In this document: positions 3,103-39,491 of the stretch, piece by piece
Layout of the letters: each line of letters starts with the position of its first letter
Numbering within the stretch: the stretch's first letter is position 1
Virus record (IMG/VR): IMGVR_UViG_3300045999_008996
Span: 158,564 to 222,563 of that record
Origin: a virus
Direction: 5' to 3' (one strand)
Length of the DNA: 64,000 bases
Translations under genes and position numbers: made by a program
Notes under the pieces: generated by a model
Told to the model about the DNA's origin: nothing
Database searches by the model: none
Seen by the model: only the letters and a program-made list of their open reading frames with translations

Positions 3103-3110
3103 GAGTATCT

Positions 3111-3638: not shown

Positions 3639-3687
3639 TTTAACCTCCATAGTATTTTCTTTTTTCTTAAAAATATTAAACATTAAT

Positions 3688-4976: not shown

Positions 4977-5062
4977 TAGTAAGTCTCACAAAGTTTTTCT
5001 ACGGATGCTGCCAACAGAACGAAGAAGGCAACGGATGTCATTGTAAACAAGAGTGAAGTCAT
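4976..5062 (-). CDS. Tiny membrane protein, 28 aa
   Basis: [20 protein letters not shown] forms a single transmembrane helix with a short polar tail. Its stop overlaps the petF start by one base (TAATG), and it fills the whole gap between hli and petF, which supports translation. The size resembles small photosystem or cytochrome b6f subunits, but I cannot match it to one. Confidence 0.5.
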
Positions 5063-5071
5063 TGTCAAGTC

Positions 5072-7938: not shown

Positions 7939-7972
7939 AAAAGTGTTTTAGTACTAAACGACATTTAGATTG

Positions 7973-7997
7973 TTAAGAATTACTACAGAATTCTTAA
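7973..7997. promoter_or_regulatory. Perfect 9-bp inverted repeat in the porin leader
   Basis: TTAAGAATT and AATTCTTAA are separated by 7 bases and lie just downstream of the -10 box at 8008-8013, about where transcription starts. It could be an operator or a leader hairpin of the porin mRNA. Confidence 0.5.
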
Positions 7998-8007
7998 GTA
8001 CTTATTT

Positions 8008-8036
8008 AGTGTAGCAGTAAATTCTAGAGGTGTCAA
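8008..8036 (-). promoter_or_regulatory. Sigma-70 promoter for the porin gene
   Basis: TTGACA (8036-8031), 17-base spacer, TACACT (8013-8008). The -35 box overlaps the end of the upstream glycosyltransferase gene. Confidence 0.7.
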
Positions 8037-8833
8037 GAGGTTTGTTGTGCTGCAGTATTTTCGGTTATCCTACCCAAATAAGGGTTATAATCTGTAATTT
8101 GTTCTGCAGTTAGGTCACTTCCTTGGGTTTTCCAGAAATTGAGTATTCCATCATGACTATTACGGTGAAAAACATCGATGTGTTCCGGATGAATAGTTGA
8201 TCCCAATTCTAATCTGTAAAGTAACAAGGGAGTTGCATAAGTTACACCAGAATTATAGATCAAATCATCAGCAACTGCTCTGGGTTTAACTCCATTATCA
8301 AGTTTATACTTATCACCACGAATATGATTATTAATTAATTTTTGAGCATGATGACGAGTAATTACATAACAGGCAGTGGAAAAATCATTTACGAATCTAT
8401 TATGAATAGGGACTACAATGTCTCCCGTACAAATGATTGCAAGTTGAATTACATCCCAAGCATAAGGAGCACGAGCAATAAAATCTTGCCAGGTAAAATT
8501 CCAATACTTGACTAAATCTAAATTACAATCATCTTCCATGATAATTGCATATGGACTATCAGAGGTTTCCATCCAATACTTAATTGCCTTCAAATGAGAA
8601 GTTGTACATCCAATCTCACCAGAGGTCATCATATCTGGATACTTACCTTTAATGATATCACTCAAATCATCTTCACGACCATCATATGCAGAGATGCGAG
8701 TATAATTTTCTATTTCCCAATACTTAAATTGGTCCTCCATATATTTTTGTCTTTCTGGTTGACCATCAAGATTCAAATAATAAATTGGACCAAAATTTTT
8801 GAGTTTATAAGTAGATTTATTTTTGTCCATCAA
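8033..8833 (-). CDS. Glycosyltransferase family 25 (LPS glycosyltransferase type)
   Basis: 266 residues. Family blocks are clear: IYYLNLDGQPERQKYME at the N-terminus, then GEIGCTTSHLKAIKYWM and the metal-binding YAIIMEDDCNL. GT25 enzymes add hexoses to lipopolysaccharide or lipooligosaccharide. It is the last gene of the glycan cassette and overlaps the upstream epimerase by 17 bases. Substrate unknown. Confidence 0.82.
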   Translation of the reverse strand: MMDKNKSTYKLKNFGPIYYLNLDGQPERQKYMEDQFKYWEIENYTRISAYDGREDDLSDIIKGKYPDMMTSGEIGCTTSHLKAIKYWMETSDSPYAIIMEDDCNLDLVKYWNFTWQDFIARAPYAWDVIQLAIICTGDIVVPIHNRFVNDFSTACYVITRHHAQKLINNHIRGDKYKLDNGVKPRAVADDLIYNSGVTYATPLLLYRLELGSTIHPEHIDVFHRNSHDGILNFWKTQGSDLTAEQITDYNPYLGRITENTAAQQTS

Positions 8834-9713
8834 TCCATTCCTTCAAATTTACTTTTGGTTCCCACCCAAATACTTTTTTAATTTTGAAATTATCTGCAAG
8901 AGTAACTTTTGTTTCTCCAATTCTAGGAGGAATGCACTCCACATTATCGGAAATAAATGAAGCAACTTCTTTGATTGAATAATTTTTTCCAGTTCCTACA
9001 TTGTAAACCTGCCCATAATGCACGTCTTTAACATTTGAAGTTGTAACAATAATATTAGCATTTACAACATCACTAACATGAGTAAAATCTCTTCTTTGTT
9101 CCCCTTCTCCTATAATAGTTAATGCTTTTCCATCTCTTCTTTGTCTTAAAAAAATTCCAACTACAGGCGCATATTGTCCTCGAAGAGGTTGATGTTCTCC
9201 ATAAACGTTAAAATATCTAAAGATAATAGTTTTTAATCCATACAAATCATTATACATTTTACAAAGTTTCTCACCACTAACTTTGGAAATAGAGTATGCA
9301 TTTAAACAATCATCTAACTGAGTTTCTACATTTGGAACACTATTCATTCCATAAGCAGAAGATGTTGAAGAGTATATCACGCACTTAACACCTGCCTCCC
9401 TAGAACACTGCAGTACCGTACAAGTGCCCACAGAATTAATGCTTACTGCCTCAATTGGATTCAGGATTGCAGGCTGAATACGTGCCTCTGCTGCAAGGTG
9501 AAACACATAATCTACGCCATCATAAAGAGAGCGTGTGTTTTCATAGTCACGAATATCATACTTATAATTCTGTGCATTATCGTTCCAATAGAACTGATCA
9601 TGGGTGTCAGAAAACTCATTATCAATTACAATGACCTCATGTCCTATACTGATTAATTTATCTACAAGATTTGAACCAATAAATCCTGCTCCGCCAGTTA
9701 CTAAACTTTTCAT
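8817..9713 (-). CDS. NAD-dependent sugar epimerase/dehydratase (SDR, UDP-glucose 4-epimerase type)
   Basis: 298 residues. NAD-binding GGAGFIGSN at residues 7-15, FHLAAEA at about 71, catalytic YSISK at about 137-141 preceded by SSTSSAYG. The family converts nucleotide sugars, for example C4 epimerisation. It overlaps both neighbours and so belongs to the glycan operon. Exact substrate cannot be read from sequence. Confidence 0.85.
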   Translation of the reverse strand: MKSLVTGGAGFIGSNLVDKLISIGHEVIVIDNEFSDTHDQFYWNDNAQNYKYDIRDYENTRSLYDGVDYVFHLAAEARIQPAILNPIEAVSINSVGTCTVLQCSREAGVKCVIYSSTSSAYGMNSVPNVETQLDDCLNAYSISKVSGEKLCKMYNDLYGLKTIIFRYFNVYGEHQPLRGQYAPVVGIFLRQRRDGKALTIIGEGEQRRDFTHVSDVVNANIIVTTSNVKDVHYGQVYNVGTGKNYSIKEVASFISDNVECIPPRIGETKVTLADNFKIKKVFGWEPKVNLKEWIDGQK

Positions 9714-10516
9714 AAAGTATTATTCCTAATAGATTTTATCCACCAACTAACTTTAAGTTTATCCATATTAAAAGTTTTATTAGAAAATTCTTCAAGTTTT
9801 TTATTCAAAAAATCTTCAGTTATTTCTTTAAATGATTTAACTATTACCACAGGAAGATCTGTTAAACATTTACAATGAATAGTGTTTTCTACAATTGGTA
9901 TTATACCATGATACATAGATTCCCACAAACGATGCGTATCAATTCCATTCCCACTTGGGCAAAGAATAAATTTATGATTATCTAACTGCGTTTTATATTC
10001 TTCCAATAATAAGTTTGGATGTTCAACAGAGCACCATTCATTTGTTTGAAAGTAATCATATATCCATTTTCTACATTTAGAATTAGTTTCTATTCTATGA
10101 TTTACATAAAGCAATTTTTTTGGAGATCCACTTTTTATTAACTTATCATATTTTAATGTAATTGGGCAATAATCATTTGCAATACCAATAGGAATAGGAA
10201 TCAAATCATTGTGATCATAATCTACATTTTGAGCATACCATTTTGAGATGCATTTTGGTTTAGTAAAAAATAACTCTTCATCTACCGCATAATCTCCTTC
10301 ATGAGTTATCAACTTTATATCTTTAATGTCATCTTCATCTTTAAGAGTATCAAAAAGTAGAGGAACTAAGTCAATTTTGCAAAAAAGAATATTACCATCA
10401 TCTAGTTCAAAGTTTTCATTCACATAAGTCTTGTGAGTTCCATTTTCAGGAATGGTTTCGGAAAAAATAACATCAGACTGTCTAGCAAAATTATATCCAC
10501 TTAAAAAGTCATTCAT
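9710..10516 (-). CDS. Exostosin-like glycosyltransferase
   Basis: 268 residues. The C-terminal half holds KFILCPSGNGIDTHRLWESM followed by GIIPIV, the pattern of exostosin/GT47-like and related GT-B enzymes in which the Glu binds the nucleotide sugar. No membrane segment. It shares four bases with each neighbour, so it is co-translated with them. Product unknown. Confidence 0.65.
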   Translation of the reverse strand: MNDFLSGYNFARQSDVIFSETIPENGTHKTYVNENFELDDGNILFCKIDLVPLLFDTLKDEDDIKDIKLITHEGDYAVDEELFFTKPKCISKWYAQNVDYDHNDLIPIPIGIANDYCPITLKYDKLIKSGSPKKLLYVNHRIETNSKCRKWIYDYFQTNEWCSVEHPNLLLEEYKTQLDNHKFILCPSGNGIDTHRLWESMYHGIIPIVENTIHCKCLTDLPVVIVKSFKEITEDFLNKKLEEFSNKTFNMDKLKVSWWIKSIRNNTL

Positions 10517-21375: not shown

Positions 21376-21376
21376 G

Positions 21377-21450
21377 TGCTCCTTGCGTGGATCGAACACG
21401 CCTCAGGCGAATTATGAGTTCGCTGCATTCACCAGATTGCTAAAGGAGCA
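21377..21450 (-). tRNA. tRNA with CAT anticodon (Met or Ile2)
   Basis: A 7-bp acceptor stem (TGCTCCT), an anticodon arm GCGAA-CTCATAA-TTCGC and a T-arm GCGTG-TTCGATC-CACGC. The CAU anticodon fits elongator Met, or Ile if C34 is modified to lysidine. No encoded CCA. Confidence 0.85.
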
Positions 21451-21454
21451 AGGT

Positions 21455-21541
21455 ACGAGTGGGTGGATTCGAACCACCTCAAAGCCGCTAATCTGGCGGA
21501 AAGGCGTTATAAGTGCCCTCTGACTACCAAGTCTCACTCGC
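21455..21541 (-). tRNA. Class II tRNA with apparent TAT anticodon (Leu/Ser-like body)
   Basis: 87 nt with a long variable arm (CCGC and GCGG around a 7-base loop), a T-arm GGTGG-TTCGAAT-CCACC and an acceptor CGAGTG/CACTCG. The best anticodon arm is GGGCA-CTTATAA-CGCCT, giving UAU, which reads the Ile codon AUA; the A31-C39 closing pair is mismatched and the D-loop is short. Bacterial class II tRNAs are Leu, Ser or Tyr, so UAU is unexpected. It has its own consensus promoter at 21555-21583. Confidence 0.7.
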
Positions 21542-21554
21542 TTGAACCAGGTCT

Positions 21555-21583
21555 ATTATAGAGGACCTGGAACTCTATGTCAA
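21555..21583 (-). promoter_or_regulatory. Consensus sigma-70 promoter for the class II tRNA
   Basis: TTGACA (21583-21578), 17-base spacer, TATAAT (21560-21555), 14 bases before the tRNA. The -35 box overlaps the stop of the Phd-like gene. Confidence 0.9.
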
Positions 21584-21810
21584 GAACCTTCTTCGTGGTC
21601 AGTGTGTATTCGTATCATATCATCATCCACTTTAGATTCTACTGCAAACTTTATAGTTTCGTTATATGGAACAATCACTGCGTTTCTTTCTCCATCAGTA
21701 ATAATAAATGATTCGCCGTTCTCTACTCTTTGTATTAGATTGTCAAAATCTACTTGAAACTCTTGAACTGTAAATTTTTGGAGATCTGAAAGTTCTGGAT
21801 ACATTTTCAT
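21580..21810 (-). CDS. Phd/YefM-like antitoxin-type protein, 76 aa
   Basis: The centre of the protein reads TVQEFQVDFDNLIQRVENGE then SFIITDGERNAVIVPY, which is the Phd/YefM antitoxin pattern (SVREFRxxFDELIERVExGE, then a beta hairpin and an AVLVP strand). Starts at 21810 or 21804; neither has a clear ribosome site. The acidic C-terminal tail would be the toxin-binding part. No toxin gene is next to it: tRNAs flank it on both sides. It may act as a DNA-binding repressor or neutralise a host toxin (inference). Confidence 0.65.
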   Translation of the reverse strand: MKMYPELSDLQKFTVQEFQVDFDNLIQRVENGESFIITDGERNAVIVPYNETIKFAVESKVDDDMIRIHTDHEEGS

Positions 21811-21827
21811 AAAGTGAAGTTTATGAT

Positions 21828-21898
21828 CGGGGTGAGAGGGATCGAACCTCTGTCTTCTTGCTCCCAAAGCAAGCCGTCTACCGCTGACTTACACCCCG
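21828..21898 (-). tRNA. tRNA-Pro (TGG)
   Basis: Acceptor CGGGGTG/CACCCCG, anticodon arm CTTGC-TTTGGGA-GCAAG, T-arm AGAGG-TTCGATC-CCTCT. Lies 23 bases downstream of the promoter at 21921-21949. Confidence 0.93.
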
Positions 21899-22015
21899 TT
21901 ATTTGTTTCTGTGTATAAACATAATACCAGCAAATGGTACGATTGTCAACCCACATCCACAAAGAAAAAGAAAGAAGGGACTTGCTGCTAATGTTTCAAC
22001 AAGATGAAAAATCAT
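21899..22015 (-). CDS. Single-span membrane protein, 38 aa
   Basis: Starts MIFHLVETLAASPFFLFL and stays hydrophobic to residue 34. The ATG overlaps the upstream stop (ATGA). A consensus-like promoter lies inside the gene, and its stop abuts tRNA-Pro. Function unknown. Confidence 0.5.
   Translation of the reverse strand: MIFHLVETLAASPFFLFLCGCGLTIVPFAGIMFIHRNK
21921..21949 (-). promoter_or_regulatory. Sigma-70 promoter for tRNA-Pro and the Phd-like gene
   Basis: TTGACA (21949-21944), 17-base spacer, TATTAT (21926-21921). It is inside the 38-aa gene. Confidence 0.8.
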
Positions 22016-22239
22016 CTTCCCCTCCAGTTCTTGTATTCATAATACATGTATTGGTCGGTTTCGTCAAGCCCCTGTAAAGGAGCATGAACGTCCCAGTGTG
22101 ACCATTCAATACAGAACTGTTTAATATGTATATCATTAACAGCAGTCTTTACTCCATACATTCTAGAAAATGAAGACATTGCAAAATGATATTTTTGTCT
22201 AATGTGCGGTTCCATTTCCCTTATATTCTTTGGAGTCAT
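22012..22239 (-). CDS. Hypothetical protein, 75 aa
   Basis: Soluble, aromatic-rich protein (CIEWSHWDVHAPLQG, then DQYMYYEYKNW). AGGAGG lies 6 bases before the ATG. Overlaps a 39-aa gene upstream and the 38-aa gene downstream. No family recognised. Confidence 0.65.
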   Translation of the reverse strand: MTPKNIREMEPHIRQKYHFAMSSFSRMYGVKTAVNDIHIKQFCIEWSHWDVHAPLQGLDETDQYMYYEYKNWRGR

Positions 22240-22318
22240 AGTATCCTCCTCTTGTTCCGAAATAGAGTGTTGTTAAAACAAACGGAATAGAAATGAAAAT
22301 AAGTGCTTTACCTAACAT
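22199..22318 (-). CDS. Small membrane-anchored protein, 39 aa
   Basis: MLGKALIFISIPFVLTTLYF is a signal anchor, with a polar tail of 19 residues. Its ATG lies inside the last codons of gnd. It overlaps the next gene by 41 bases and holds that gene's ribosome site. Function unknown. Confidence 0.5.
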   Translation of the reverse strand: MLGKALIFISIPFVLTTLYFGTRGGYYDSKEYKGNGTAH

Positions 22319-23330
22319 GATGTCCCCCAAACATATAACGCATTCCGTTTAGGATTTTTGCTCCGAATGATCCGAGATTGCGTGAGTTAAATCTTTCAAA
22401 TAGTGCTGTAGTAATAACAGGAGCGGGAACCCCCAGGTCCACAGCGGCAGAAACAGTCCAACGACCCTCACCACTATCGGATACTCCTCCAGAGAACTGT
22501 TTAAGGCTACCATCCCGGCGTAACACATCAGCAGTAAGATCAAGTAACCAAGACCCAACCACGCTACCGCGACGCCATAACTCAGCAACCTCAGCAACAT
22601 CAATATCATAACAATAGGATTCGGGGTCTGCCATAGGGGCGACTTCTGCATCTCCTTCTCTAACATATTTGGCACCCACATTAGCGTTCTTCAGAATGTT
22701 GAAACCTTCTGCATATGCTTGCATTATTCCATACTCAATACCGTTGTGAACCATCTTCACAAAATGTCCTGCACCTGGACCACCACAATGCAACCAACCA
22801 AACTCAGCAGAAGTTACATCCGAGTCATACTGAGTCCTGGGGGCAGCGTTGATTCCTGGAGCGAGGGCATCAAAAATGCTTGCACAAGTGGCGACCGCAG
22901 TATTTCCGCCACCAACCATAAGACAGTATCCACGATCCAAACCATAAACACCGCCGCTAGTACCACAATCAATATATTGGATACCAAGTTTTGCAAGACG
23001 CTCTGCTCTCTTCCGACTGTCTTTAAAATTGCTATTGCCATGATCAATAATAATATCTCCCTCACCACAATATCGTAGTAACTCATTGATTGTTTCCTCT
23101 ACAGTTTCTGCTGGCACAACCATTTGAAATATTCCTGGATTGCCATTACCTTTTACTACTTGAACAAGGCTTTGTATAGTAGTCGTAACACCATTAACAT
23201 ATCCGTTTTCATATGCTTCTTGAGCCTTTTCATAGTTCCTTCGGTAACCCCAAACCTCAATACCCGCTTTCATCATGCGGCGAGACATTCCTTCACCCAT
23301 TCTTCCCAAACCAATTAATCCTACTTTCAT
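22308..23330 (-). CDS. gnd: 6-phosphogluconate dehydrogenase, decarboxylating
   Basis: 340 residues, the short form of the family. NADP-binding GLIGLGRMGEGMSRRM at the start, the catalytic CGTSGGVYG, GGPGAGHFVKMVHNGIEYG with the key Lys and Asn, and GVSDSGEGRWT near the C-terminus. It makes ribulose 5-phosphate, CO2 and NADPH. Phage copies are thought to push carbon through the pentose phosphate pathway for dNTP synthesis, which fits nrdA/nrdB nearby. The ATG at 23330 follows GGAGG by 5 bases and overlaps the stop of a 31-aa gene. Confidence 0.95.
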   Translation of the reverse strand: MKVGLIGLGRMGEGMSRRMMKAGIEVWGYRRNYEKAQEAYENGYVNGVTTTIQSLVQVVKGNGNPGIFQMVVPAETVEETINELLRYCGEGDIIIDHGNSNFKDSRKRAERLAKLGIQYIDCGTSGGVYGLDRGYCLMVGGGNTAVATCASIFDALAPGINAAPRTQYDSDVTSAEFGWLHCGGPGAGHFVKMVHNGIEYGIMQAYAEGFNILKNANVGAKYVREGDAEVAPMADPESYCYDIDVAEVAELWRRGSVVGSWLLDLTADVLRRDGSLKQFSGGVSDSGEGRWTVSAAVDLGVPAPVITTALFERFNSRNLGSFGAKILNGMRYMFGGHHVR

Positions 23331-23422
23331 AAAACCTCCGGATATGCGTGTGTAAGTCCCCAATGTATAAAAAGTCCAATAGACGAAAAAAGAAGAATTG
23401 TAGATATTATTGTTTTAATCAT
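23327..23422 (-). CDS. Tiny membrane protein, 31 aa, coupled to gnd
   Basis: MIKTIISTILLFSSIGLFIH is one hydrophobic helix. The stop overlaps the gnd start (ATGA) and its start overlaps the 37-aa gene by 8 bases, so ribosomes would pass through all three. It contains the gnd ribosome site. Confidence 0.5.
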   Translation of the reverse strand: MIKTIISTILLFSSIGLFIHWGLTHAYPEVL

Positions 23423-23528
23423 CTTCTTCATCTTCGTAAGCAGATGGTTCTTCAAAGAGTTCTTCCATTTTTTGTTGAAGAACTCTTTTGTTTAGTTTTT
23501 GCAAATCTTCTTCTGTGATTGTTACCAT
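23415..23528 (-). CDS. Small acidic protein, 37 aa
   Basis: Starts MVTITEEDLQKLNKR and ends in a run of Glu and Asp (YEDEEDD). Its ATG shares one base with the preceding stop (TAATG). Helical and highly charged; function unknown. Confidence 0.55.
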   Translation of the reverse strand: MVTITEEDLQKLNKRVLQQKMEELFEEPSAYEDEEDD

Positions 23529-23731
23529 TAGTTTAAAGTAATTTTAAGAAATGGAAGTAACGGGGGAATAACTCCAACTAATCTCAAAAGTCCCTCAGCA
23601 AATAAAGCAAGAACCACCCAACCGACGCACATACTAATGATAGAAGCATTACGGTTGTGTCTTCGGATAGCAGCATCAATCATCTCCTGAACTTCAGAAC
23701 GTGTGATAAATTCTTCTTGTTCGTGCATCAT
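23528..23731 (-). CDS. Membrane protein, 67 aa
   Basis: A polar helix (EEFITRSEVQEMIDAAIRRH) is followed by a transmembrane stretch at about 31-62 (SIISMCVGWVVLALFAEG, then LRLVGVIPPLLPFL). Part of the overlapping small-gene chain that ends with gnd. Confidence 0.6.
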   Translation of the reverse strand: MMHEQEEFITRSEVQEMIDAAIRRHNRNASIISMCVGWVVLALFAEGLLRLVGVIPPLLPFLKITLN

Positions 23732-23877
23732 TTTTCATCGCCAAGAAATTTTGCAAGAGGGTCTCTTCGGGTTTTTACGATTTCAACTGCTCTTTTGTAG
23801 AACATATTATCCATGTTCCCAGAAGATTCAAAAGTTGCTTTGATCTTCACCCAATTATCGTAGGTGTGTTGATCCAT
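23728..23877 (-). CDS. Hypothetical protein, 49 aa
   Basis: Starts MDQHTYDNWVKIKATFE; a short soluble helical protein. First gene after the promoter at 23903-23930. Its stop overlaps the next start. Function unknown. Confidence 0.55.
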   Translation of the reverse strand: MDQHTYDNWVKIKATFESSGNMDNMFYKRAVEIVKTRRDPLAKFLGDEK

Positions 23878-23902
23878 CGGTTCGTCCCCGTGATACTACT
23901 AT

Positions 23903-23930
23903 ATACTAATCACAGGTATTTCGATGTCAA
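23903..23930 (-). promoter_or_regulatory. Sigma-70 promoter for the small-gene/gnd operon
   Basis: TTGACA (23930-23925), 16-base spacer, TAGTAT (23908-23903). Other -10-like hexamers lie just downstream, so the exact -10 is uncertain. Confidence 0.65.
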
Positions 23931-23993
23931 CTTTTTGTGTTCATATCGTAACACTGTTGAAAAAATTATTAAATTTGTAACTATTCTTAAAAC

Positions 23994-24078
23994 GGAAGCG
24001 GTAGGATTTGAACCCACGAACGCTATTAACGTTGGTTGTTTTCAAGACAACTGCCATAAACCACTCGGCCACGCTTCC
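23994..24078 (-). tRNA. tRNA-Ser (TGA)
   Basis: Class II tRNA; acceptor GGAAGCG/CGCTTCC, anticodon arm GTTGT-CTTGAAA-ACAAC, variable arm AACG/CGTT, T-arm GTGGG-TTCAAAT-CCTAC. Confidence 0.93.
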
Positions 24079-24088
24079 AGTAGAAGGT

Positions 24089-24340
24089 TCAACGAACCTC
24101 AAAATCCAATCGTTTTACTTTACGTTGGCGTCTTGCTTCTTGAAAAGCAAGATCTTGCGAAGAAAGAACATTTGATTTTTGTTCTTTCTGGATAGAGTTT
24201 AACATAACAATGCGAGATAAGTCAAGTGCTGATATCTTATCTCCACGAATTGTTGCCATATTAGGACAACCACAGGTCACCGTTTTTGAATGATGTCCTG
24301 TTATTTCCTTATTACAATCTTTGCATCTTATTGAAATCAT
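24089..24340 (-). CDS. Zinc-ribbon-like small protein, 83 aa
   Basis: CKDCNKEITGHHSKTVTCGC at residues 6-25 holds CxxC and CxC pairs that could bind zinc, followed by a long basic helix (FQEARRQRKVKRL). It may bind nucleic acid or act as a small regulator (inference). It lies between tRNA-Ser and the Dps gene. Confidence 0.65.
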   Translation of the reverse strand: MISIRCKDCNKEITGHHSKTVTCGCPNMATIRGDKISALDLSRIVMLNSIQKEQKSNVLSSQDLAFQEARRQRKVKRLDFEVR

Positions 24341-24355
24341 GATTCTTCATCCTAT

Positions 24356-24790
24356 TCATTGCAGGTGTGCTCTTAACTGCCAAACAAACTTACCATGAGA
24401 TTCCATTAAATCTTGAACTAAATTTGCTGTAGCATATGACTTTTGATTTTCAGATTCTTCCGAAATCTCTACCATTAAATCACAAAACTTGGTATTGTTA
24501 TCAAGAAGCTCTTGAAGCATTTCTTTTGCTCCAGTTGAACTTGCTGCCTCTTTGATTTGAGTTACCTCAAGCATTCTAGAAAGAGAACTGAGAGGTTTTA
24601 CATTCAAATAACGCATATGTTCCGAAAGACGATCAATCTCTTCAAACATAGTTTCATACTGACCGCCAAAGAGTTGATGAAGTTGAGTGAAGTCTTCACC
24701 TACAACATTCCAATGAAATGCCCAAGTTTTATGGAATAAAACAAAAAGCGATGACTGTGCATCACTCAAGAGTTTATAAAGTTTTTCCAT
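24356..24790 (-). CDS. Dps-like ferritin-family protein
   Basis: 144 residues from the ATG at 24790; a longer frame runs back through the tRNA-Val gene and is rejected. Dps signatures: FHWNVVGEDFTQLHQLFGG (His of the ferroxidase site) and YETMFEEIDRLSEHMRYL (Asp and Glu ligands). The family stores iron, removes peroxide and can protect DNA. It pairs in theme with the phage peroxiredoxin. Confidence 0.85.
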   Translation of the reverse strand: MEKLYKLLSDAQSSLFVLFHKTWAFHWNVVGEDFTQLHQLFGGQYETMFEEIDRLSEHMRYLNVKPLSSLSRMLEVTQIKEAASSTGAKEMLQELLDNNTKFCDLMVEISEESENQKSYATANLVQDLMESHGKFVWQLRAHLQ

Positions 24791-24819
24791 TATACTCTTT
24801 TTATTTTTATTTATCAAGT

Positions 24820-24891
24820 GGGCAAAGAGGGATTCGAACCCCCGACATCCTCCGTGTAAAGGAGACGCTACTACCGCTGAGCTATTTGCCC
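24820..24891 (-). tRNA. tRNA-Val (TAC)
   Basis: Acceptor GGGCAAA/TTTGCCC, anticodon loop TTTACAC, T-arm GGGGG-TTCGAAT-CCCTC. Confidence 0.93.
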
Positions 24892-24895
24892 TGGC

Positions 24896-24966
24896 TCCAC
24901 AACCTGGATTCGAACCAGGGACCAAGTGATTAACAGTCACCGACTCTACCGCTGAGCTATTGTGGA
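24896..24966 (-). tRNA. tRNA-Asn (GTT)
   Basis: Acceptor TCCACAA/TTGTGGA, anticodon loop CTGTTAA, T-arm CCTGG-TTCGAAT-CCAGG. Confidence 0.93.
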
Positions 24967-24971
24967 ATGAA

Positions 24972-25040
24972 GGAAGTTACTGGACTTACACCAGTTACGA
25001 GGGCATTGTCTGCTTGTCTTGATTCTTTGACTTAACTTCC
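24972..25040 (-). other. tRNA-like structure, possible decayed tRNA
   Basis: 69 nt on the minus strand with a perfect 7-bp acceptor-like stem (GGAAGTT/AACTTCC), a T-arm-like hairpin ACTGG-TGTAAGT-CCAGT directly before the 3' arm, and a 3-bp D-like stem. It has no proper anticodon arm, no T33 and no TTC in the T-loop. It sits in line with true tRNA genes. Confidence 0.5.
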
Positions 25041-25081
25041 TTTGGCGTCTTTCTATGCTATCTGCATAACGACTACCAAGA

Positions 25082-25152
25082 GCGAAAGACGAGATTCGAA
25101 CTCGCAACAACCTGCTTGGAAGGCAGGGACTCTACCGTTGAGTTACTTTCGC
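25082..25152 (-). tRNA. tRNA-Gly (TCC)
   Basis: Acceptor GCGAAAG/CTTTCGC, anticodon arm CCTGC-CTTCCAA-GCAGG, T-arm GCGAG-TTCGAAT-CTCGT. Confidence 0.93.
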
Positions 25153-25161
25153 AATGAGACA

Positions 25162-25190
25162 ATCATAAACTATTTTAGTTTGATTGTCAA
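25162..25190 (-). promoter_or_regulatory. Sigma-70 promoter inside the tRNA array
   Basis: TTGACA (25190-25185), 17-base spacer, TATGAT (25167-25162), 10 bases upstream of tRNA-Gly. Confidence 0.75.
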
Positions 25191-25192
25191 GT

Positions 25193-25273
25193 GTCGATGA
25201 GAGGACTTGAACCTCCACAGATTAATCTACTGGAACCTAAACCCAGCGCGTCTACCAATTCCGCCACATCGAC
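25193..25273 (-). tRNA. tRNA-Leu (TAG)
   Basis: Class II tRNA; acceptor GTCGATG/CATCGAC, anticodon arm CTGGG-TTTAGGT-TCCAG, variable arm, T-arm GGAGG-TTCAAGT-CCTCT. The anticodon UAG reads CUA/CUN. Confidence 0.93.
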
Positions 25274-25337
25274 TTGATGGAGTAAGTATGATATACCTCA
25301 TAAGGATATAACAGTGACTTACCCTCTATCATTTTAT

Positions 25338-25366
25338 ATATTAACAGACTCAAAAGAATCTGTCAA
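25338..25366 (-). promoter_or_regulatory. Sigma-70 promoter inside the tRNA array
   Basis: TTGACA (25366-25361), 17-base spacer, TAATAT (25343-25338), upstream of the leader hairpin and tRNA-Leu. Confidence 0.75.
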
Positions 25367-25368
25367 GC

Positions 25369-25440
25369 GTCCTTTGAGAGATTCGAACTCCCGCACATAG
25401 GTTCGTAGCCTACTGCTCTATTCCACTGAGCTAAAAGGAC
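25369..25440 (-). tRNA. tRNA-Arg (ACG)
   Basis: Acceptor GTCCTTT/AAAGGAC, anticodon loop CTACGAA, T-arm GGGAG-TTCGAAT-CTCTC. Confidence 0.93.
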
Positions 25441-25444
25441 AAGT

Positions 25445-25515
25445 TCTGAGGGTAGGATTCGAACCCACGAATGGCGGGACCAAAACCCGCTGCCTTACCG
25501 CTTGGCGACCTCAGA
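25445..25515 (-). tRNA. tRNA-Gln (TTG)
   Basis: Acceptor TCTGAGG/CCTCAGA, anticodon arm GCGGG-TTTTGGT-CCCGC, T-arm GTGGG-TTCGAAT-CCTAC. Confidence 0.93.
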
Positions 25516-25516
25516 A

Positions 25517-25587
25517 GCCCTCAATTGGATTTGAACCAACGACCTACTCATTACTAGTGAGTTGCTCTACCACTGAGCTATAAGGGC
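25517..25587 (-). tRNA. tRNA-Thr (AGT)
   Basis: Acceptor GCCCTTA/TGAGGGC, anticodon arm ACTCA-CTAGTAA-TGAGT, T-arm GTTGG-TTCAAAT-CCAAT. The A34-containing anticodon AGU is unusual for threonine in bacteria and phages. Confidence 0.9.
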
Positions 25588-25590
25588 GGG

Positions 25591-25660
25591 GTGCCGTGAG
25601 GGAATCGAACCCTCATATAGAGAACCACAATCTCCTGTCTTACCATTAGACTAACGACAC
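25591..25660 (-). tRNA. tRNA-His (GTG)
   Basis: Acceptor GTGTCG/CGGCAC, anticodon arm GGAGA-TTGTGGT-TCTCT, T-arm GAGGG-TTCGATT-CCCTC. No encoded G at position -1 is seen. Confidence 0.9.
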
Positions 25661-25662
25661 AA

Positions 25663-25735
25663 GGCAGTAGATAGATTTGAACTATCGACCATAGGCATAT
25701 GAGACCCGTGCTCTGCCAGACTGAGCTATACTGCC
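25663..25735 (-). tRNA. tRNA with CAT anticodon (Ile2 or Met)
   Basis: Acceptor GGCAGTA/TACTGCC, anticodon loop CTCATAT with a weak stem (two wobble pairs and an outer mismatch), T-arm GATAG-TTCAAAT-CTATC. The body resembles bacterial Ile2 tRNA, which would need lysidine at C34; Met is the alternative. Confidence 0.8.
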
Positions 25736-25738
25736 AAC

Positions 25739-25826
25739 GGAAGTGGTTGGATTCGAACCAACGGATGCCTATAAAGACATCGGCGGATTAGCAATCCACT
25801 GCATTAGACCTCTCTGCCACACTTCC
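25739..25826 (-). tRNA. tRNA-Ser (GCT)
   Basis: Class II tRNA; acceptor GGAAGTG/CACTTCC, anticodon arm GTGGA-TTGCTAA-TCCGC, long variable arm, T-arm GTTGG-TTCGAAT-CCAAC. Confidence 0.93.
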
Positions 25827-25830
25827 AATA

Positions 25831-25901
25831 GGAATGGTGAGATTCGAACTCACGACCACACGATTATCAGTCGTGTACTCTAACCAACTGAGCTACATTC
25901 C
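25831..25901 (-). tRNA. tRNA-Ile (GAT)
   Basis: Acceptor GGAATG/CATTCC with a mismatched seventh pair, anticodon arm ACGA-CTGATAA-TCGT, T-arm GTGAG-TTCGAAT-CTCAC. Confidence 0.92.
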
Positions 25902-25907
25902 TGTGGT

Positions 25908-25978
25908 ATTCCTAACGGGATTCGAACCCGTGCTGCCACCTTGAAAGGGTGGTGACCTAACCGCTAGTCGATAGGAAC
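25908..25978 (-). tRNA. tRNA-Glu (TTC)
   Basis: Acceptor GTTCCTA/TAGGAAT, anticodon arm CCACC-CTTTCAA-GGTGG, T-arm ACGGG-TTCGAAT-CCCGT. Confidence 0.92.
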
Positions 25979-25982
25979 TTAA

Positions 25983-26025
25983 TGCTGACGGCATTCTGGA
26001 TTATCAGCTCCAGCGCAAATCAGCA
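25983..26025 (-). other. Armless tRNA-like remnant, 43 nt
   Basis: A 7-bp outer stem (TGCTGAT with GTCAGCA, one wobble) encloses a perfect 5-bp stem CTGGA/TCCAG whose 8-base loop contains CTGATAA, identical to the anticodon loop of tRNA-Ile (GAT) 80 bases away. No D- or T-arm. It lies exactly between tRNA-Glu and tRNA-Asp. Confidence 0.45.
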
Positions 26026-26027
26026 AC

Positions 26028-26098
26028 GACTCTAACGGGATTTGAACCCGTGATACTACCGTGACAGGGTAGCGTGATAACCGCTTCACTATAGAGTC
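26028..26098 (-). tRNA. tRNA-Asp (GTC)
   Basis: Acceptor GACTCTA/TAGAGTC, anticodon arm CTACC-CTGTCAC-GGTAG, T-arm ACGGG-TTCAAAT-CCCGT. Confidence 0.93.
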
Positions 26099-26103
26099 AA
26101 GGT

Positions 26104-26184
26104 GGGAGGAGCAGGATTCGAACCTGCGAAGGTAGAACCGTCTGATTTACAGTCAGATTCCTTTAGCCACTCGGAAATCCTCCC
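26104..26184 (-). tRNA. tRNA-Tyr (GTA)
   Basis: Class II tRNA; acceptor GGGAGGA/TCCTCCC, anticodon arm TCTGA-CTGTAAA-TCAGA, T-arm GCAGG-TTCGAAT-CCTGC. Confidence 0.93.
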
Positions 26185-26188
26185 AGAT

Positions 26189-26260
26189 GGGTATGGTCGG
26201 GTTCGAACCGACGACTTACAGGTTAAAAGCCCGCTACTCTACCAACTGAGTTACATACCC
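26189..26260 (-). tRNA. tRNA-Lys (TTT)
   Basis: Acceptor GGGTATG/CATACCC, anticodon loop CTTTTAA, T-arm GTCGG-TTCGAAC-CCGAC. Confidence 0.93.
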
Positions 26261-26376
26261 TTAGAATTAAATTGTCAAGGTTCGGGGTGTGGTCTCTCTC
26301 GACCACTTGATTAGAATACCACCTTTTGGACTCTGGGGGGAGATTGGTGGACACTTAGGAAACTGGTCCAAGCAAC
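26261..26376 (-). other. Non-coding structured gap in the tRNA array
   Basis: No gene is seen in these 116 bases. They hold a perfect 6-bp hairpin GTGGTC-GAGAGA-GACCAC and a TTGACA with no convincing -10 at the proper distance. They lie between the terminator at 26377-26410 and tRNA-Lys, so they may be a leader or processing region of the tRNA transcript. Confidence 0.4.
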
Positions 26377-26410
26377 AAAAAAGGGGAGGAAACTTTTGGT
26401 TTCTCTCCCC
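26377..26410 (-). terminator. Rho-independent terminator inside the tRNA array
   Basis: GGGGAGAGAAAC pairs with GTTTCCTCCCC (one bulge) around a short A-rich loop, followed by six T. Ends the 33-aa gene transcript. Confidence 0.85.
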
Positions 26411-26435
26411 TCTATTTGCTTTTATGGATTGCATA

Positions 26436-26537
26436 TTACATATGTCTTTCCATTTCAGCAAACAGGGGATTACCCTCAATATGCCAATCACGGCAATCGA
26501 GAGTACTAATCTGTTTGGTGGTGATTTGGAAAGACAT
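26436..26537 (-). CDS. Tiny protein, 33 aa, within the tRNA array
   Basis: Starts MSFQITTKQISTLDCRDW and ends EMERHM. It has its own late promoter (26559-26566) and its own terminator (26377-26410), which supports a real gene despite its size. Function unknown. Confidence 0.55.
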   Translation of the reverse strand: MSFQITTKQISTLDCRDWHIEGNPLFAEMERHM

Positions 26538-26558
26538 TGTTTTCGACCTAAGTGTTTT

Positions 26559-26566
26559 TATTTATA
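26559..26566 (-). promoter_or_regulatory. T4-type late promoter TATAAATA
   Basis: Exact octamer, 22 bases upstream of the ATG at 26537. Confidence 0.75.
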
Positions 26567-26590
26567 AGACTTTTATTTAAAAAGTCTAAC

Positions 26591-26663
26591 GGGTTAGGAG
26601 GGACTCGAACCCCCGACCAATTCATTAGAAGTGAATTGCTCTATCCATCTGAGCTACTAACCC
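26591..26663 (-). tRNA. tRNA-Arg (TCT)
   Basis: Acceptor GGGTTAG/CTAACCC, anticodon arm ATTCA-CTTCTAA-TGAAT, T-arm GGGGG-TTCGAGT-CCCTC. Confidence 0.93.
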
Positions 26664-26749
26664 AAGAGACCTCTCTGTTTGTGCTTCTATGAGAGGCATG
26701 AGAGGGGTGAGACTTATATGAGGTTTGGACCCTCACTGCTCATATGATT

Positions 26750-34349: not shown

Positions 34350-35108
34350 TCAAACAGGGGTTGGATAAAGAATTCCATCAGTGCCTGTAGTGATACCAGA
34401 CATTGCAACAAGAGTTTCGGTTTTAACTCTGAAGTTGCCCTGACAGTCTATGTATGTTGTAACACCAACCCAACCTTGATGAGCAAACCCACTATAAGCA
34501 GCAGGAACAGAATCAGTAGAAATTCCATAAACTTGCTTATCGTACCCGTCAACATATCTCCTAAATGTTAAAATATCTCCAGTTGCGATTCCAGCAGAGA
34601 TAGTAGAACCGAGAGTAATATTTACAGTGCCAACAGTAGAAATGACAAGATTATTTCCATTATTTACCACAAAATCTCCATCAATCAATCCACTTGGAGG
34701 AACGACTGGAATAATGCTTGTACCAATATTAGCATTGGTGGTTGCAGTTCCTGTAATAGTTAGAGTTGTTATTGATGGAGCAGAATCGTTAGCGTTGCTG
34801 TAAGAACTATCAAGAACAGTATACTTTGGAAGTTCGCTGATATAAAACGCCGTTGATGCGATTGCAGCACCACTTAATCCAGCAGTTGAAGCGATTGAAA
34901 GAGAAGTTGTGCTAGCAATACCAACAATTACAGCGTCTCCAAAATAGGTTCCACCACCACCACGAATACCAAATCTAATCACATCTCCAGTCGCTGCTGC
35001 ACCAACTTGTCCAAAAGTTGTGCCAGAACCAACCACTTCAAGAGTGGTGTAATTTAAAGTTACTGTGCCTCCAGAACCTTTGTTGTCATTATTTCCCCAG
35101 AGTGCCAT
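34350..35108 (-). CDS. Virion structural protein, 252 aa
   Basis: Beta-rich and low in charge with many Gly, Ser, Thr and Ile: MALWGNNDNKGSGGTVTLNY at the start, then repeats of short strands (TTLTITGTATTNANIGTS). This start and composition are typical of cyanophage structural proteins, possibly a head or tail decoration. It has its own late promoter (35141-35148) directly after a terminator. Confidence 0.75.
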   Translation of the reverse strand: MALWGNNDNKGSGGTVTLNYTTLEVVGSGTTFGQVGAAATGDVIRFGIRGGGGTYFGDAVIVGIASTTSLSIASTAGLSGAAIASTAFYISELPKYTVLDSSYSNANDSAPSITTLTITGTATTNANIGTSIIPVVPPSGLIDGDFVVNNGNNLVISTVGTVNITLGSTISAGIATGDILTFRRYVDGYDKQVYGISTDSVPAAYSGFAHQGWVGVTTYIDCQGNFRVKTETLVAMSGITTGTDGILYPTPV

Positions 35109-35421: not shown

Positions 35422-36909
35422 TTATACAGTAACGTCAGTATCAGTTCCTTTAGGAGCAGATCTAAGTGCTTGAAGTTTTCTATTTAAGATTTGAACTTCT
35501 TGCTGTCTTTGACGATCTTTTTGCTGTGCGATTTTCTTTTGTGCTTGATCAGGTTTTTCCTGGGTCTTTGGTTGAATTTCCATTGCCTGTTCGGCAATTT
35601 TCTTTGCCATTTTGGTAGCAGTGGCATACATCACTTCTTTACCACGACCAGGATATCTCTTTTCAAAGTCTGCTACCTTATCCTTCATTGACTTTACAAG
35701 TCTTTCTTTTTCTTTAGTTTCAGAACGAGTTAATGTCTTTTCGTCAATTTGAACTTGCTCACTTCTTACACTTGCGAGAAGATCATCTAATTTGGACTTT
35801 CTCTTTTTTGTAGGTGCCTTAGTAGTTCCACCACTTACTTTAGTAGTCTTTGCTTTTGCTTTTGGTTTTGCTTTTGGTTTTGTTGGAGTTGTTGCACTAC
35901 CTTCCCAAGGATCAGAAGGTTTTTCTGCTTTGGGTTTTGGTTTTGGTTTCTGAGGAACTGTTGAACTTCCTTTCCATGGATCAGAAGGTTTTTCTGCTTT
36001 CTTTTTAGTAGGTCCAGTATAAGAACCACTGCTTACTCTTTCTTTAGTTCCTGCACCTGCACCACGATAAACTGATGCAGATCTTGTTTTAGTATGTGCC
36101 GCACTCGGTTTTGAATCACCACCTTCCATTTTACGAGCAACACCTAATGCACCTTTAGCAACTTTTCTTGCTCCCGTTGCAACTGCTTGCTTTGCTGCTT
36201 TCTTAGCACCACGAACTTTACTAGAAAGTTTTTGTCTTGCAAGTCTTCCAACTGCTGCAACTAAATTACCTCTTTTCTTTTGTCCTGTAGGAGTATCATG
36301 TCCAAAAGTTACTTTTGCTTCAGTAAGTGCAAACTCAAGTGCTTCTTCAATATCATCCTCATCATAACCTTCATCAAGGAGTTCATCATAAACACTTTCA
36401 ACAATATAATCAACTTCATCAACTTCTACCATTTCAAGCAGAGTTCCGCCCAGGTTTTCTACCGCTTCACCAATATTAGGATTGATTTTGATTTTATTTT
36501 TTACTGCTTTTTCAGTAATCTTTTCATCACCTTTATCTTTAGAAACAACTTCTAAAATCTCAGAAAGATCTTCTCTCCAATTTGAATATCCTTCCTTTAC
36601 ACTCTTCTTTGCAATCGCAGCACCACGAACTTTTCTACGATTTAGAAGATACTTATCAGTCTTATCGTGATCACCGTCATTATCAATATCTTTATCCTCT
36701 TTACCTACAGGATCAAGTGCTTCTTTAATCTTATTCTTTTCTCTCATTGCTTTTGCTTTTGCAAGTGCTCTTTCTCTAGCAGCATCTCTTTCTGCTTTTG
36801 GAATTGCAGTTACAGCACCAAGTCTTTCTGCTGGTTTTCCAGGAACTGCTGATTCAGCAACCTGTTCCAAATACACTCTAGAAATATCATTCAGAGGATT
36901 AATAGACAT
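35422..36909 (-). CDS. Large low-complexity virion protein, 495 aa
   Basis: The N-terminus (NDISRVYLEQVAESAV) looks like other cyanophage virion proteins. An EF-hand-like loop DIDNDGDHDKTDKYL lies at about 73-87. The middle has acidic helices; residues about 210-360 are Lys/Ala/Pro-rich with a repeated unit AEKPSDPW(K/E)GS about 30 residues apart and KPKAKPKAKAK runs. A second helical region closes the protein. It is transcribed from the late promoter at 36943-36950. Probably structural or packaged with DNA. Confidence 0.7.
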   Translation of the reverse strand: MSINPLNDISRVYLEQVAESAVPGKPAERLGAVTAIPKAERDAARERALAKAKAMREKNKIKEALDPVGKEDKDIDNDGDHDKTDKYLLNRRKVRGAAIAKKSVKEGYSNWREDLSEILEVVSKDKGDEKITEKAVKNKIKINPNIGEAVENLGGTLLEMVEVDEVDYIVESVYDELLDEGYDEDDIEEALEFALTEAKVTFGHDTPTGQKKRGNLVAAVGRLARQKLSSKVRGAKKAAKQAVATGARKVAKGALGVARKMEGGDSKPSAAHTKTRSASVYRGAGAGTKERVSSGSYTGPTKKKAEKPSDPWKGSSTVPQKPKPKPKAEKPSDPWEGSATTPTKPKAKPKAKAKTTKVSGGTTKAPTKKRKSKLDDLLASVRSEQVQIDEKTLTRSETKEKERLVKSMKDKVADFEKRYPGRGKEVMYATATKMAKKIAEQAMEIQPKTQEKPDQAQKKIAQQKDRQRQQEVQILNRKLQALRSAPKGTDTDVTV

Positions 36910-36914
36910 CTTAA

Positions 36915-38207
36915 TTAAGCGCGTACTTTTTGTTTCTTATACTTATTTATAAATTTGTCTAAGAACGAGGATCCACCTGCTTGAAGATTTTCTTTTCCTA
37001 AAGATGAACCAGGAGTTTGTTTGAGTGCATACTTCAAATATCCAGTTGTTCCAAAAAGAGTATTTGGTTTTCCTGGTTCTCTATACATTCTATCCATTTT
37101 AACTTCAGTATATTCCATTACATCTTTAATCCAAGACTTAAACATATATCCTTCTTCAGTCACGCAGATTAAGTGGTTAGTTCCCCTACGCATTACTTCA
37201 CCAATCAAACCAGTGTTTAGATTTTGAACCTTATCTCCGATTCTAAAAATTTTTCCTCTCACATAATTCTCACGAAGATTTCTCATATCATACTTTGGAG
37301 CAATCTCCCATAATGCATAACTTTCTTTCTTTACCTTTGATTTCTTGACTTGCATTCCTTGACGAACTGCATTGAAGAGTGCTTGAGTATCAGCATCATT
37401 CAATGTCTTTGGTGTTCCTCTACGGAAAGAATCGAAATCATTATCCATTACTGCTTTTCTCATCTTGGATGCAGACATTCCTTCTACACCTTCAGCATCT
37501 GCATCTCTTACGCCAGCAGATATAACACGAATCAAATCAAAGTTGTATAGTTCTCCATTATACTTTTGTGCAAGATTTTCAAACTCTGCTTGACGATCAG
37601 AACCAACGACAATGTTTACATTATTATAACCATCCTCATTTGCAGTCACTAAGACGTTAAAAATGGTTTTCATCTCTTCATCATTAATAATGTTCTCCTC
37701 AAACTCGGGGAACATTTTCTTCATATAAGAAACTTTAGTATTAGGGTCTAAAGGATTTTTCTTTGGATCTTGAGACCTTGAAGGGTAAATCTTAATATCT
37801 CCACCAGCAGAAATTCTCTTCGCTGACTTGAGAAGTTTATCGTGTCCTACTGTTGGTGGATTGAAGCGACCAAAAACAACAGTGAGTGGTGGTAGTTCCT
37901 CTGCGGGTTGCTCTTCAGGTGCTTGTCTTGGTGCTGCTTGAGGTTGTGGAGCAGGGGCAGGTGCTGCTTGAGTTGGTTGTGTGGTTGGTGCAGCACCAGC
38001 AGGTTGTCTTCCTGCAGCAGGTTCTTCTGCACCTTTTGGTTGACGACCATCAATATACTTCAGTTTTCCCTTTTCGGTTCTCGCAACAACTTTACCCGAA
38101 CGGTCCAACCATCCACCGTGACCATCCCCAGTGTATCCAAGTTTTTTCGCTTGCATTGCTGCTTGCGATTCTTTTGCTTCAGTTAGAAAATTGAGAAAAC
38201 TTTTCAT
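36915..38207 (-). CDS. Virion-associated nucleotidylyltransferase (NMNAT/cytidylyltransferase fold)
   Basis: 430 residues. The N-terminus MKSFLNFLTEAKES copies the T4 capsid-targeting sequence (MKTYQEFIAEA) and offers LTE-A for prohead protease cleavage. A Pro/Ala/Gln linker follows at about 60-105. The nucleotidylyltransferase domain (about 107-290) has FGRFNPPTVGHDKLL (HxGH type, here VGH) and SASKMRKAV (ISSTxxR type). A C-terminal domain (about 300-430) is of unknown fold. It may act on NAD or nucleotide precursors and enter the host with the DNA (inference). Confidence 0.75.
   Translation of the reverse strand: MKSFLNFLTEAKESQAAMQAKKLGYTGDGHGGWLDRSGKVVARTEKGKLKYIDGRQPKGAEEPAAGRQPAGAAPTTQPTQAAPAPAPQPQAAPRQAPEEQPAEELPPLTVVFGRFNPPTVGHDKLLKSAKRISAGGDIKIYPSRSQDPKKNPLDPNTKVSYMKKMFPEFEENIINDEEMKTIFNVLVTANEDGYNNVNIVVGSDRQAEFENLAQKYNGELYNFDLIRVISAGVRDADAEGVEGMSASKMRKAVMDNDFDSFRRGTPKTLNDADTQALFNAVRQGMQVKKSKVKKESYALWEIAPKYDMRNLRENYVRGKIFRIGDKVQNLNTGLIGEVMRRGTNHLICVTEEGYMFKSWIKDVMEYTEVKMDRMYREPGKPNTLFGTTGYLKYALKQTPGSSLGKENLQAGGSSFLDKFINKYKKQKVRA
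36943..36950 (-). promoter_or_regulatory. T4-type late promoter TATAAATA
   Basis: Exact octamer 34 bases before the ATG at 36909, inside the 3' end of the upstream gene. Confidence 0.75.
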
Positions 38208-38230
38208 ATTTTGTGTTGATATACTTATAT

Positions 38231-39379
38231 TTATTTCTTCTTATAATCGCACATAATATGCGATGGATAAACTTTTCCTGCTTTATTTCTAAAATTGAAC
38301 TGAAAATTATATAGAGATGATGCACAATCTACAATAACTTTTTTACCAGTTCCTGTTGTTCCTCCATAATAAGCAGTAATTCTTCCCATTAAGTTTGTTG
38401 ATTTATTTAGATAATTATCATCAACTTCGTATATATCTACCTTTCCTGCGCCTTTACCGTGAACCATTACATAACCATATCCCATCATCTGTCTCAGTAA
38501 CTTAGTCATTGCATTCTTATCACATGTATTAGTAACATCTTGCTGGTAATTTTCAATTTTACCAGAATGTGGGTAGTTATTAAATGTGCTACAGAATGAT
38601 GTTTCGTCTAAACCAAATACTTCTAAAATATTTTTAGCAGTTTCATTAAGATTATAATCATTAACAGATTTTTCTGTAAAAATGCTTTGTATTCCAATAT
38701 TAGCAAAAGCAAGAGTGCTTTGAAATTTTAAAGAAAGATATACTTCTTTATTACCAAATTTAAGAGTAATATCTGTAACAGTGGATCCAATATTTTCTTG
38801 TCCCGTTCCTATTGACAAATTTCTTTTTGAAACCTTTAGTGGTCTTTTTTGATTTAATTCACCCACAGCAATAACTTCTTTTAAAGGTGCTTTATGTTTT
38901 TTTCCTAGATCTTCAACGATCTGTTTTGCCTGAGTATGATATTTTCCTTTCTTTCCCTCACAGTTTAAAATGTTGACCAAAGACTCATAAAACTCTCTTT
39001 CAAAGACTAATCCAAGATTTTCTTTTTTTCCTGATCCAGCACCTTGACCGCCAAATTCTCCAGTTTTTTCTAAATCATTAATCTTTACAGTAGTAATTCT
39101 TCCAGTATTTTCATACTTACCAGTTAATTCAATTGATGACTTCGTTCCTTTTGTAGACGCTGCTTCTTCTACTCTGGAAATTATTTCCTTTACAAGATTT
39201 TTTTCTTTAGTCTCATATGCATATTGCTTTCCATTTATATCCAAAATGAGAGCAACTGGCAAAAAAATTCCTTCCTTTGTTAGGAATTTATTTTCTTTTC
39301 CTTCTAAACCAAGAAACTTTTTTACAAAAGTATCATAGTTGCCTCTTTTTAAAAGGTCCTCTTTTTTTAAGAGTGCCAT
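38231..39379 (-). CDS. Hypothetical protein, 382 aa (possible nuclease-like core)
   Basis: Lys-rich alpha/beta protein. A central stretch, GSTVTDITLKFGNKEVYLSL followed by KFQ, resembles the D...(x)LK core of PD-(D/E)xK nucleases, but the Glu is not secure. The gene begins 22 bases after an exact late promoter (39401-39408) and lies in the structural region, so it is made late. No family recognised. Confidence 0.65.
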   Translation of the reverse strand: MALLKKEDLLKRGNYDTFVKKFLGLEGKENKFLTKEGIFLPVALILDINGKQYAYETKEKNLVKEIISRVEEAASTKGTKSSIELTGKYENTGRITTVKINDLEKTGEFGGQGAGSGKKENLGLVFEREFYESLVNILNCEGKKGKYHTQAKQIVEDLGKKHKAPLKEVIAVGELNQKRPLKVSKRNLSIGTGQENIGSTVTDITLKFGNKEVYLSLKFQSTLAFANIGIQSIFTEKSVNDYNLNETAKNILEVFGLDETSFCSTFNNYPHSGKIENYQQDVTNTCDKNAMTKLLRQMMGYGYVMVHGKGAGKVDIYEVDDNYLNKSTNLMGRITAYYGGTTGTGKKVIVDCASSLYNFQFNFRNKAGKVYPSHIMCDYKKK

Positions 39380-39408: not shown

Positions 39409-39410
39409 AT

Positions 39411-39481
39411 GGAGTGTAAGGAAATCGAATCCTTATTGCTGGAATGCAAATCCAGAGTAATAACCGTTATACGAACACCCC
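39411..39481 (-). tRNA. tRNA-Ala (TGC), isolated
   Basis: Acceptor GGGGTGT/ACACTCC, anticodon arm CTGGA-TTTGCAT-TCCAG, T-arm AAGGA-TTCGATT-TCCTT. It lies 13 kb from the main tRNA array and has its own promoter at 39492-39520. Confidence 0.92.
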
Positions 39482-39491
39482 AAGTTTAGAT

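Follow-up and report, generated by a model that had tools for sequence, protein, structure and literature searches.

The locus and its genes

The window, the final 64 kb of a virus contig of 222,563 bases, contains at positions 36915-38207 an intact ORF with an ATG start that encodes a protein of 430 amino acids with no interruption. The first-pass annotation had delimited this ORF correctly, leaving unstated its strand, which is minus, and the residues that it quoted are present in the product, GRFNPPTVGH at positions 113-122 and SASKMRK at positions 245-251. The protein is a full-length homolog of the T4-GC190 'cytitidyltransferase' of T4-like cyanophages, with matches in 563 phage records; the identity is 62% to the protein of Bellamy, 60% to that of S-SCSM1 and 59% to that of S-SM2 (labelled T4-GC 190). 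Full-length homology and synteny place it in T4-GC190/phrog_395, a known core family of the T4-like cyanophages. The source virus infects marine-type cyanobacteria, and the enzyme is of the NMN/pantetheine nucleotidyl-transfer type. The gene, the parts of its product and the associated features are as follows.

36915-38207, minus strand: virion nucleotidylyltransferase gene, T4-GC190/phrog_395 family (phrog_395, E = 9e-105)
38228-38234, minus strand: late-promoter-like motif ATAAATA, 28 nt upstream of the enzyme gene (in the relatives, the motif starts at -28)
38178-38207, minus strand: residues 1-10, MKSFLNFLTE, capsid-targeting-like, with a predicted prohead-protease cut E10/A11 (conservation, T4 comparison)
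38037-38174, minus strand: residues 12-57, module of about 45 aa, xKKLGYTGDGHGGWLDRSGKVVARTEKGKLKY... (HMM; pLDDT about 77)
37890-38036, minus strand: residues 58-106, Pro/Ala/Gln-rich disordered linker (pLDDT < 50; 5% identity, 56% gaps)
37338-37889, minus strand: residues 107-290, nucleotidylyltransferase domain of the NMNAT/PPAT fold (AlphaFold, Foldseek, phrog_395)
37842-37871, minus strand: residues 113-122, active-site motif GRFNPPTVGH (G113, R114, N116, P117, G121 and H122 invariant)
37455-37475, minus strand: residues 245-251, second motif SASKMRK (S245-K248 and R250 invariant)
37110-37286, minus strand: residues 308-366, beta-rich C-terminal module peculiar to the cyanophage family (pLDDT about 83)
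35422-36909, minus strand: 495-aa gene downstream of the enzyme gene (homolog SSCSM1_92, a virion protein by mass spectrometry)
34350-35108, minus strand: 252-aa gene farther downstream (homolog SSCSM1_95, labelled tail fiber, a virion protein)

In the S-SCSM1 record, the products of genes 92, 93 and 95, downstream of ORF91, are flagged as virion proteins, and homologs of 92 and 95 are encoded in the window. Directly upstream of the enzyme gene lies a 382-aa gene (38231-39379, minus strand; phrog_8438), with TATAAATA shortly 5' of its start. This gene was rejected as a candidate for another virion protein: the S-SCSM1 virion protein SSCSM1_90 occupies the same place but is not homologous. Twenty tRNA genes are located at 21376-26664 (nineteen) and 39409-39482 (minus strand).

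With the Syn19-type, S-CRM01 and P-SSM2 groups set aside, 17 of the 18 non-redundant relatives have ATAAATA ahead of the gene, in most cases at -28, against a chance expectation of about 0.03 per 60 nt. Across the window as a whole, ATAAATA occurs as often as chance predicts (22 vs 23.6 expected), so that only the conserved position before the enzyme gene is informative. The motif is absent in the Syn19-type group, where transcription would start farther upstream.

A conserved capsid-targeting-like N-terminus

The N-terminus of the enzyme, MKSFLNFLTEAKESQ, resembles those of the internal proteins (IPs) of phage T4, as had been noticed in the first-pass annotation: of the 11 residues of MKSFLNFLTE-A, five are the same and two are conservative replacements (F/Y at position 4 and L/I at position 8). 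In the T4 record, IPII and IPIII begin with MKTYQEFIAEA, and IPI begins with MKTFKEF. Mutants of T4 IPIII indicate that residues 4 and 7 govern targeting, and residues 8 and 10 processing (PMC9026906); in the 430-aa enzyme, these critical positions are filled by F4, F7, L8 and E10.

The MKxFxxFxxE(A/T) start, with L, F or I at position 8, is kept in 167 of 168 homologous ORFs. In an alignment that extends down to 44% identity, the first invariant columns are M1, K2, F4, F7, E10 and A11, and the next one is F112. Across the 19 distant rows of the alignment, the identity to the window enzyme is 67% in residues 1-11, 54% in the catalytic domain, 31% in the 45-aa module and 5% in the linker, making residues 1-11 by sequence comparison the best-conserved segment of the enzyme. 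The codons of these residues vary at synonymous sites in the distant rows, which, together with the conservation of the residues themselves, argues for strong selection on the protein sequence. When scored with an N-terminal position matrix built from its own family, the enzyme reaches 24.8, compared with 10.9 for the top one of 55,305 internal windows in the same genome; the match to the signal, as judged from sequence, exceeds chance.

The cyanophage matrix was discarded as a detector for T4: only IPI ranked first among 692 T4 protein starts, and IPII and IPIII scored poorly because Y4 is absent from cyanophages, so the T4 comparison rests on the direct sequence match. Homologs in jumbo coliphages and in Caulobacter phage Cr30 lack the capsid targeting sequence (CTS), as does the enzyme of P-HM2. 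In P-HM2 (1865-3760), the nucleotidylyltransferase is split into a signal-less enzyme followed by a gene with an MKSLSDF start and the C-terminal module.

The nucleotidylyltransferase domain and its substrate

AlphaFold modelling with 31 sequences yielded a confident domain at residues 107-290, a small beta-rich domain at residues 308-366 and a disordered linker. The first-pass annotation had suggested comparing residues 107-290 with NMNAT; the NMNAT fold was recovered, but PPAT matched equally well, the Foldseek matches being PPAT, NadM and NadD (E = 1e-5 to 5e-4). The Rossmann-type nucleotidylyltransferase fold is accompanied by the (G)xFxPx(H/T)xGH and SxSxxR motifs, and the domain resembles adenylyltransferases of the NMNAT/PPAT type. 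Given the invariance of G113, R114, N116, P117, G121, H122, S245, A246, S247, K248 and R250, it is very probably catalytically active.

The likeliest reaction is the conversion of NMN or NaMN to NAD, with pantetheine phosphate or another substrate possible; NMN adenylylation is our tentative first choice, at somewhat less than an even chance. The role in NAD metabolism proposed in the first-pass annotation is possible. The matches that lean toward NMNAT are the NadR model (E = 0.007), an NMN adenylyltransferase PHROG (E = 0.011) and the MJ0541 NMNAT (E = 0.57), none of them significant alone. The curated NMNAT model TIGR01526 was not matched significantly (15.7 bits vs a cut-off of 341), Pfam CTP_transf_like stayed below threshold (E = 0.004; 17.7 vs a cut-off of 21), and a PDB search with the sequence profile gave weak matches only. 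NARP1 Namat was ruled out as a relative by its Nampt-like fold.

That packaging is correctly interpreted but the substrate is something other than NMN, namely, pantetheine phosphate, the phosphate of a sugar or lipid, or a macromolecule, is close to an even possibility. Foldseek places PPAT/CoaD alongside NadM and NadD, the databases label the family cytidyltransferase, and a search of the genome for NAPRTase/NAMPT and Nudix partners found none. The TxGH in place of HxGH in the active-site motif, a PPAT-like trait, favors such a substrate as well, whereas the weak sequence matches listed above point the other way.

A mobile module between the signal and the enzyme

To search for the 45-aa module, we used a profile of residues 12-58 derived from the enzyme family only, with the S-CREM2 group left out. 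This profile detects the S-CREM2 kinase (two copies, E = 4e-16), an S-CREM2 protein labelled 'Cas9' (E = 5e-12), the S-N03 kinase (two copies, E = 1e-25) and S-CRM01 g128 (E = 4e-13). Both S-CREM2 carriers, the gp14 kinase and gp12 ('Cas9'), were detected in virions. In the enzymes of S-CRM01 and S-CREM2 themselves, the module is absent, and the signal is located just ahead of the catalytic domain. Present on unrelated proteins and missing from these two enzymes, the module is mobile and dispensable for catalysis. In the source genome, no second protein carries it. The C-terminal module (residues 308-366) was found at 474 places in 474 phage records.

The same signal on other virion proteins

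A matrix built from the enzymes of other phages, with gp154 excluded, was applied to S-CREM2 at a position fixed at the N-terminus. The top N-termini are those of the gp14 kinase (18.9), the gp6 SAM lyase (10.9) and two small proteins, gp136 (10.4) and gp13 (9.3), followed by a next score of -2.7; all four proteins were detected in virions (Fisher p = 0.003). With a broader regular expression, which was picked after inspection, seven of the eight S-CREM2 matches are virion-detected (p = 0.0002); gp122 in this set is probably a chance match. Ranking every S-CREM2 N-terminus in a one-sided test gave no significance (p = 0.43), the reason being that the majority of virion proteins have structural roles, for which a CTS is unnecessary. 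Sliding the matrix over the first 40 residues produced mixed matches (gp84, gp209) and was discarded.

A CTS-bearing 106-aa protein (S-SCSM1_30, S-SZBM1_191) is missing from both virion proteomes, and S-SZBM1_192 is missing from that of S-SZBM1. Taken together with the S-CREM2 matches, these cases make the signal a good but imperfect predictor across three proteomes. The signal is a general one: in related phages, it is borne by a kinase, a SAM lyase and small proteins.

Several individual proteins deserve description. The source record encodes, outside the window, the 106-aa protein MKSFKQFISESVNISGDFNGNLYINS (4814-5134, minus strand), which adjoins the portal gene and has a strong CTS-like start; it is conserved in S-SCSM1 and S-SZBM1, beside other head genes. 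A 73-aa ORF (source record 156168-156389, minus strand), also outside the window, starts with MKTFKQFISEC, the third-best CTS-like N-terminus of the genome. In S-CREM2, gp6 (3837-5081) is a true S-AdoMet lyase (PF23780, E = 2e-19) with a CTS-like MKDFDSFLEE, is found in virions and is a candidate injected anti-restriction enzyme. The published virion CRISPR-Cas9 nuclease of S-CREM2, gp12 (7704-10313), matches no Pfam family at E = 0.01 and bears a CTS-like RFASFMAEAA at about residue 19 in addition to the 45-aa module, so its Cas9 label looks doubtful.

Presence in virions and predicted processing in the prohead

That this family occurs in virions was known beforehand; the manner of loading is what the papers searched leave undescribed. 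Published mass spectrometry on CsCl-purified virions of four relatives identified T4-GC190 in S-SM1 (Sullivan et al. 2010; PMC3037559), ORF91 in S-SCSM1, which is 60% identical to the window enzyme and was named NMNAT (PMC9602691), S-SZBM1_140 with 2 peptides (PMC9146016) and S-CREM2 gp154 with 3 peptides (PMC10665884).

The source genome has a T4-type head module that includes a gene for a Peptidase_S77 (gp21-type) prohead protease (E = 1.5e-37), an adjoining scaffold-like ORF and a gp23 gene whose two parts lie at opposite ends of the contig. At the end of the gp23 propeptide, FLTE|A of T4 aligns with LMES, FLAEA, LTEA and LLTEA in four cyanophages, which suggests that the local protease plausibly retains the LxE|A/S specificity. 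A single LxE is found near the N-terminus of the enzyme, at residues 8-10. For the predicted cut between E10 and A11, the support is indirect and comes from the protease gene and the gp23 motif.

The N-terminus might alternatively target the protein and stay uncut, or the protein might be a bound structural or scaffold-interacting part of the virion that is not injected. Targeting and processing are separable in T4, where a protein with D at position 10 was targeted and uncut (PMC9026906), and in S-CREM2 gp14 and gp6 the E of the signal is followed by E or F rather than A. However, neither E10 nor A11 varies in the alignment of the enzyme, the genome encodes a gp21-type protease, the gp23 propeptide has this motif at its end, and an intact catalytic enzyme would be odd as a purely structural part. 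We regard this alternative as unlikely.

A further reading, which we hold to be very unlikely, is that the enzyme acts mainly in the cell late in infection, with co-purification accounting for the virion signal and the T4 likeness being coincidental: co-purification is admitted as possible in the published S-SCSM1 and S-CREM2 proteome studies themselves, and in S-SM2 the enzyme gene sits among replication genes (gp41/mazG, gp61), but the enzyme recurs in four independent virion proteomes, its N-terminus is its best-conserved part and S-CREM2 proteins with such starts are virion-detected.

A proposed route into the head and the host

We consider it probable that the gene encodes a CTS-targeted, processed and injected head-internal nucleotidylyltransferase that is expressed late. 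Expression would start from the gene's own late promoter, as the motif and its conservation suggest. MKSFLNFLTE, acting as a T4-type CTS, would then pull the protein into the prohead core, and during head maturation the gp21-type protease would cut after E10, leaving a mature protein that starts with AKESQ. The signal would be joined to the intact nucleotidylyltransferase domain through the 45-aa module and a flexible linker, and the enzyme would enter the host alongside the DNA and work at the start of infection. Of the head-packed enzyme envisaged in the first-pass annotation, the targeting signal is upheld by its conservation and its recurrence on other virion enzymes; injection with the DNA is what we infer from the analogy with T4.

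A broader proposition, on which we are evenly divided, is that T4-like cyanophages possess a general loading system in which a CTS, often combined with the mobile 45-aa module, is placed on unrelated enzymes, so that a kit is delivered before gene expression and the N-terminus alone predicts its members. The cargo would include the nucleotidylyltransferase in nearly all of these phages and a kinase, a SAM lyase and the 'Cas9'-labelled protein in some. Given the same tag on unrelated enzymes in the particles of related phages, these viruses probably deliver a small set of enzymes to the host.

For over ten years, proteome studies of cyanophages have counted this enzyme among the virion-associated proteins, along with kinases and further non-structural enzymes, leaving it undecided whether they are packaged or contaminants. 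The conserved T4-type signal offers a packaging mechanism for such enzymes and turns the N-terminus into a predictor of injected effectors in some of the ocean's most abundant viruses. Should the enzyme make NAD, an NAD-related activity would be delivered before transcription, which, speculatively, bears on NAD-depleting defences. Among the open-access papers searched, only a T4 review mentions both cyanophages and capsid targeting; we found no description there of the targeting signal in T4-GC190, of its occurrence on further virion enzymes, of the mobile module or of a way in which the enzyme is packaged.

Comparison with known systems

The closest known counterparts are the T4-GC190 proteins of cyanophages S-SM2, P-SSM2, Syn19 and S-SCSM1, which share the domain order and the gene neighborhood, the nearest being 59-62% identical, and for which presence in virions is already known as a family feature. 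NadM, NadD, NadR and CoaD (PPAT) have the same fold and the GRFxPPxxGH and SxSxxR motifs, but just 11-17% sequence identity across the structural alignment. In S-CREM2, a different cyanophage, gp14 and gp6 carry a CTS-like sequence at the very start, whereas in gp12 it is found at about residue 19; the catalytic domains of all three are unrelated to that of the window enzyme.

With T4 IPI, IPII and IPIII, the enzyme shares the MKx(F/Y)xxF(I/L)xE(A) start and the positions that in T4 govern targeting and processing, and a gp21-type protease encoded in the genome and, as predicted from the promoter motif, late-type expression are common to both systems. T4 belongs to a different phage family from the source virus, whose relatives are Kyanoviridae, and the T4 IPs, which inhibit Type IV restriction enzymes (PMC12373910), are small, whereas in the cyanophage several domains make up the cargo enzyme, which has a 45-aa module and a linker in addition.
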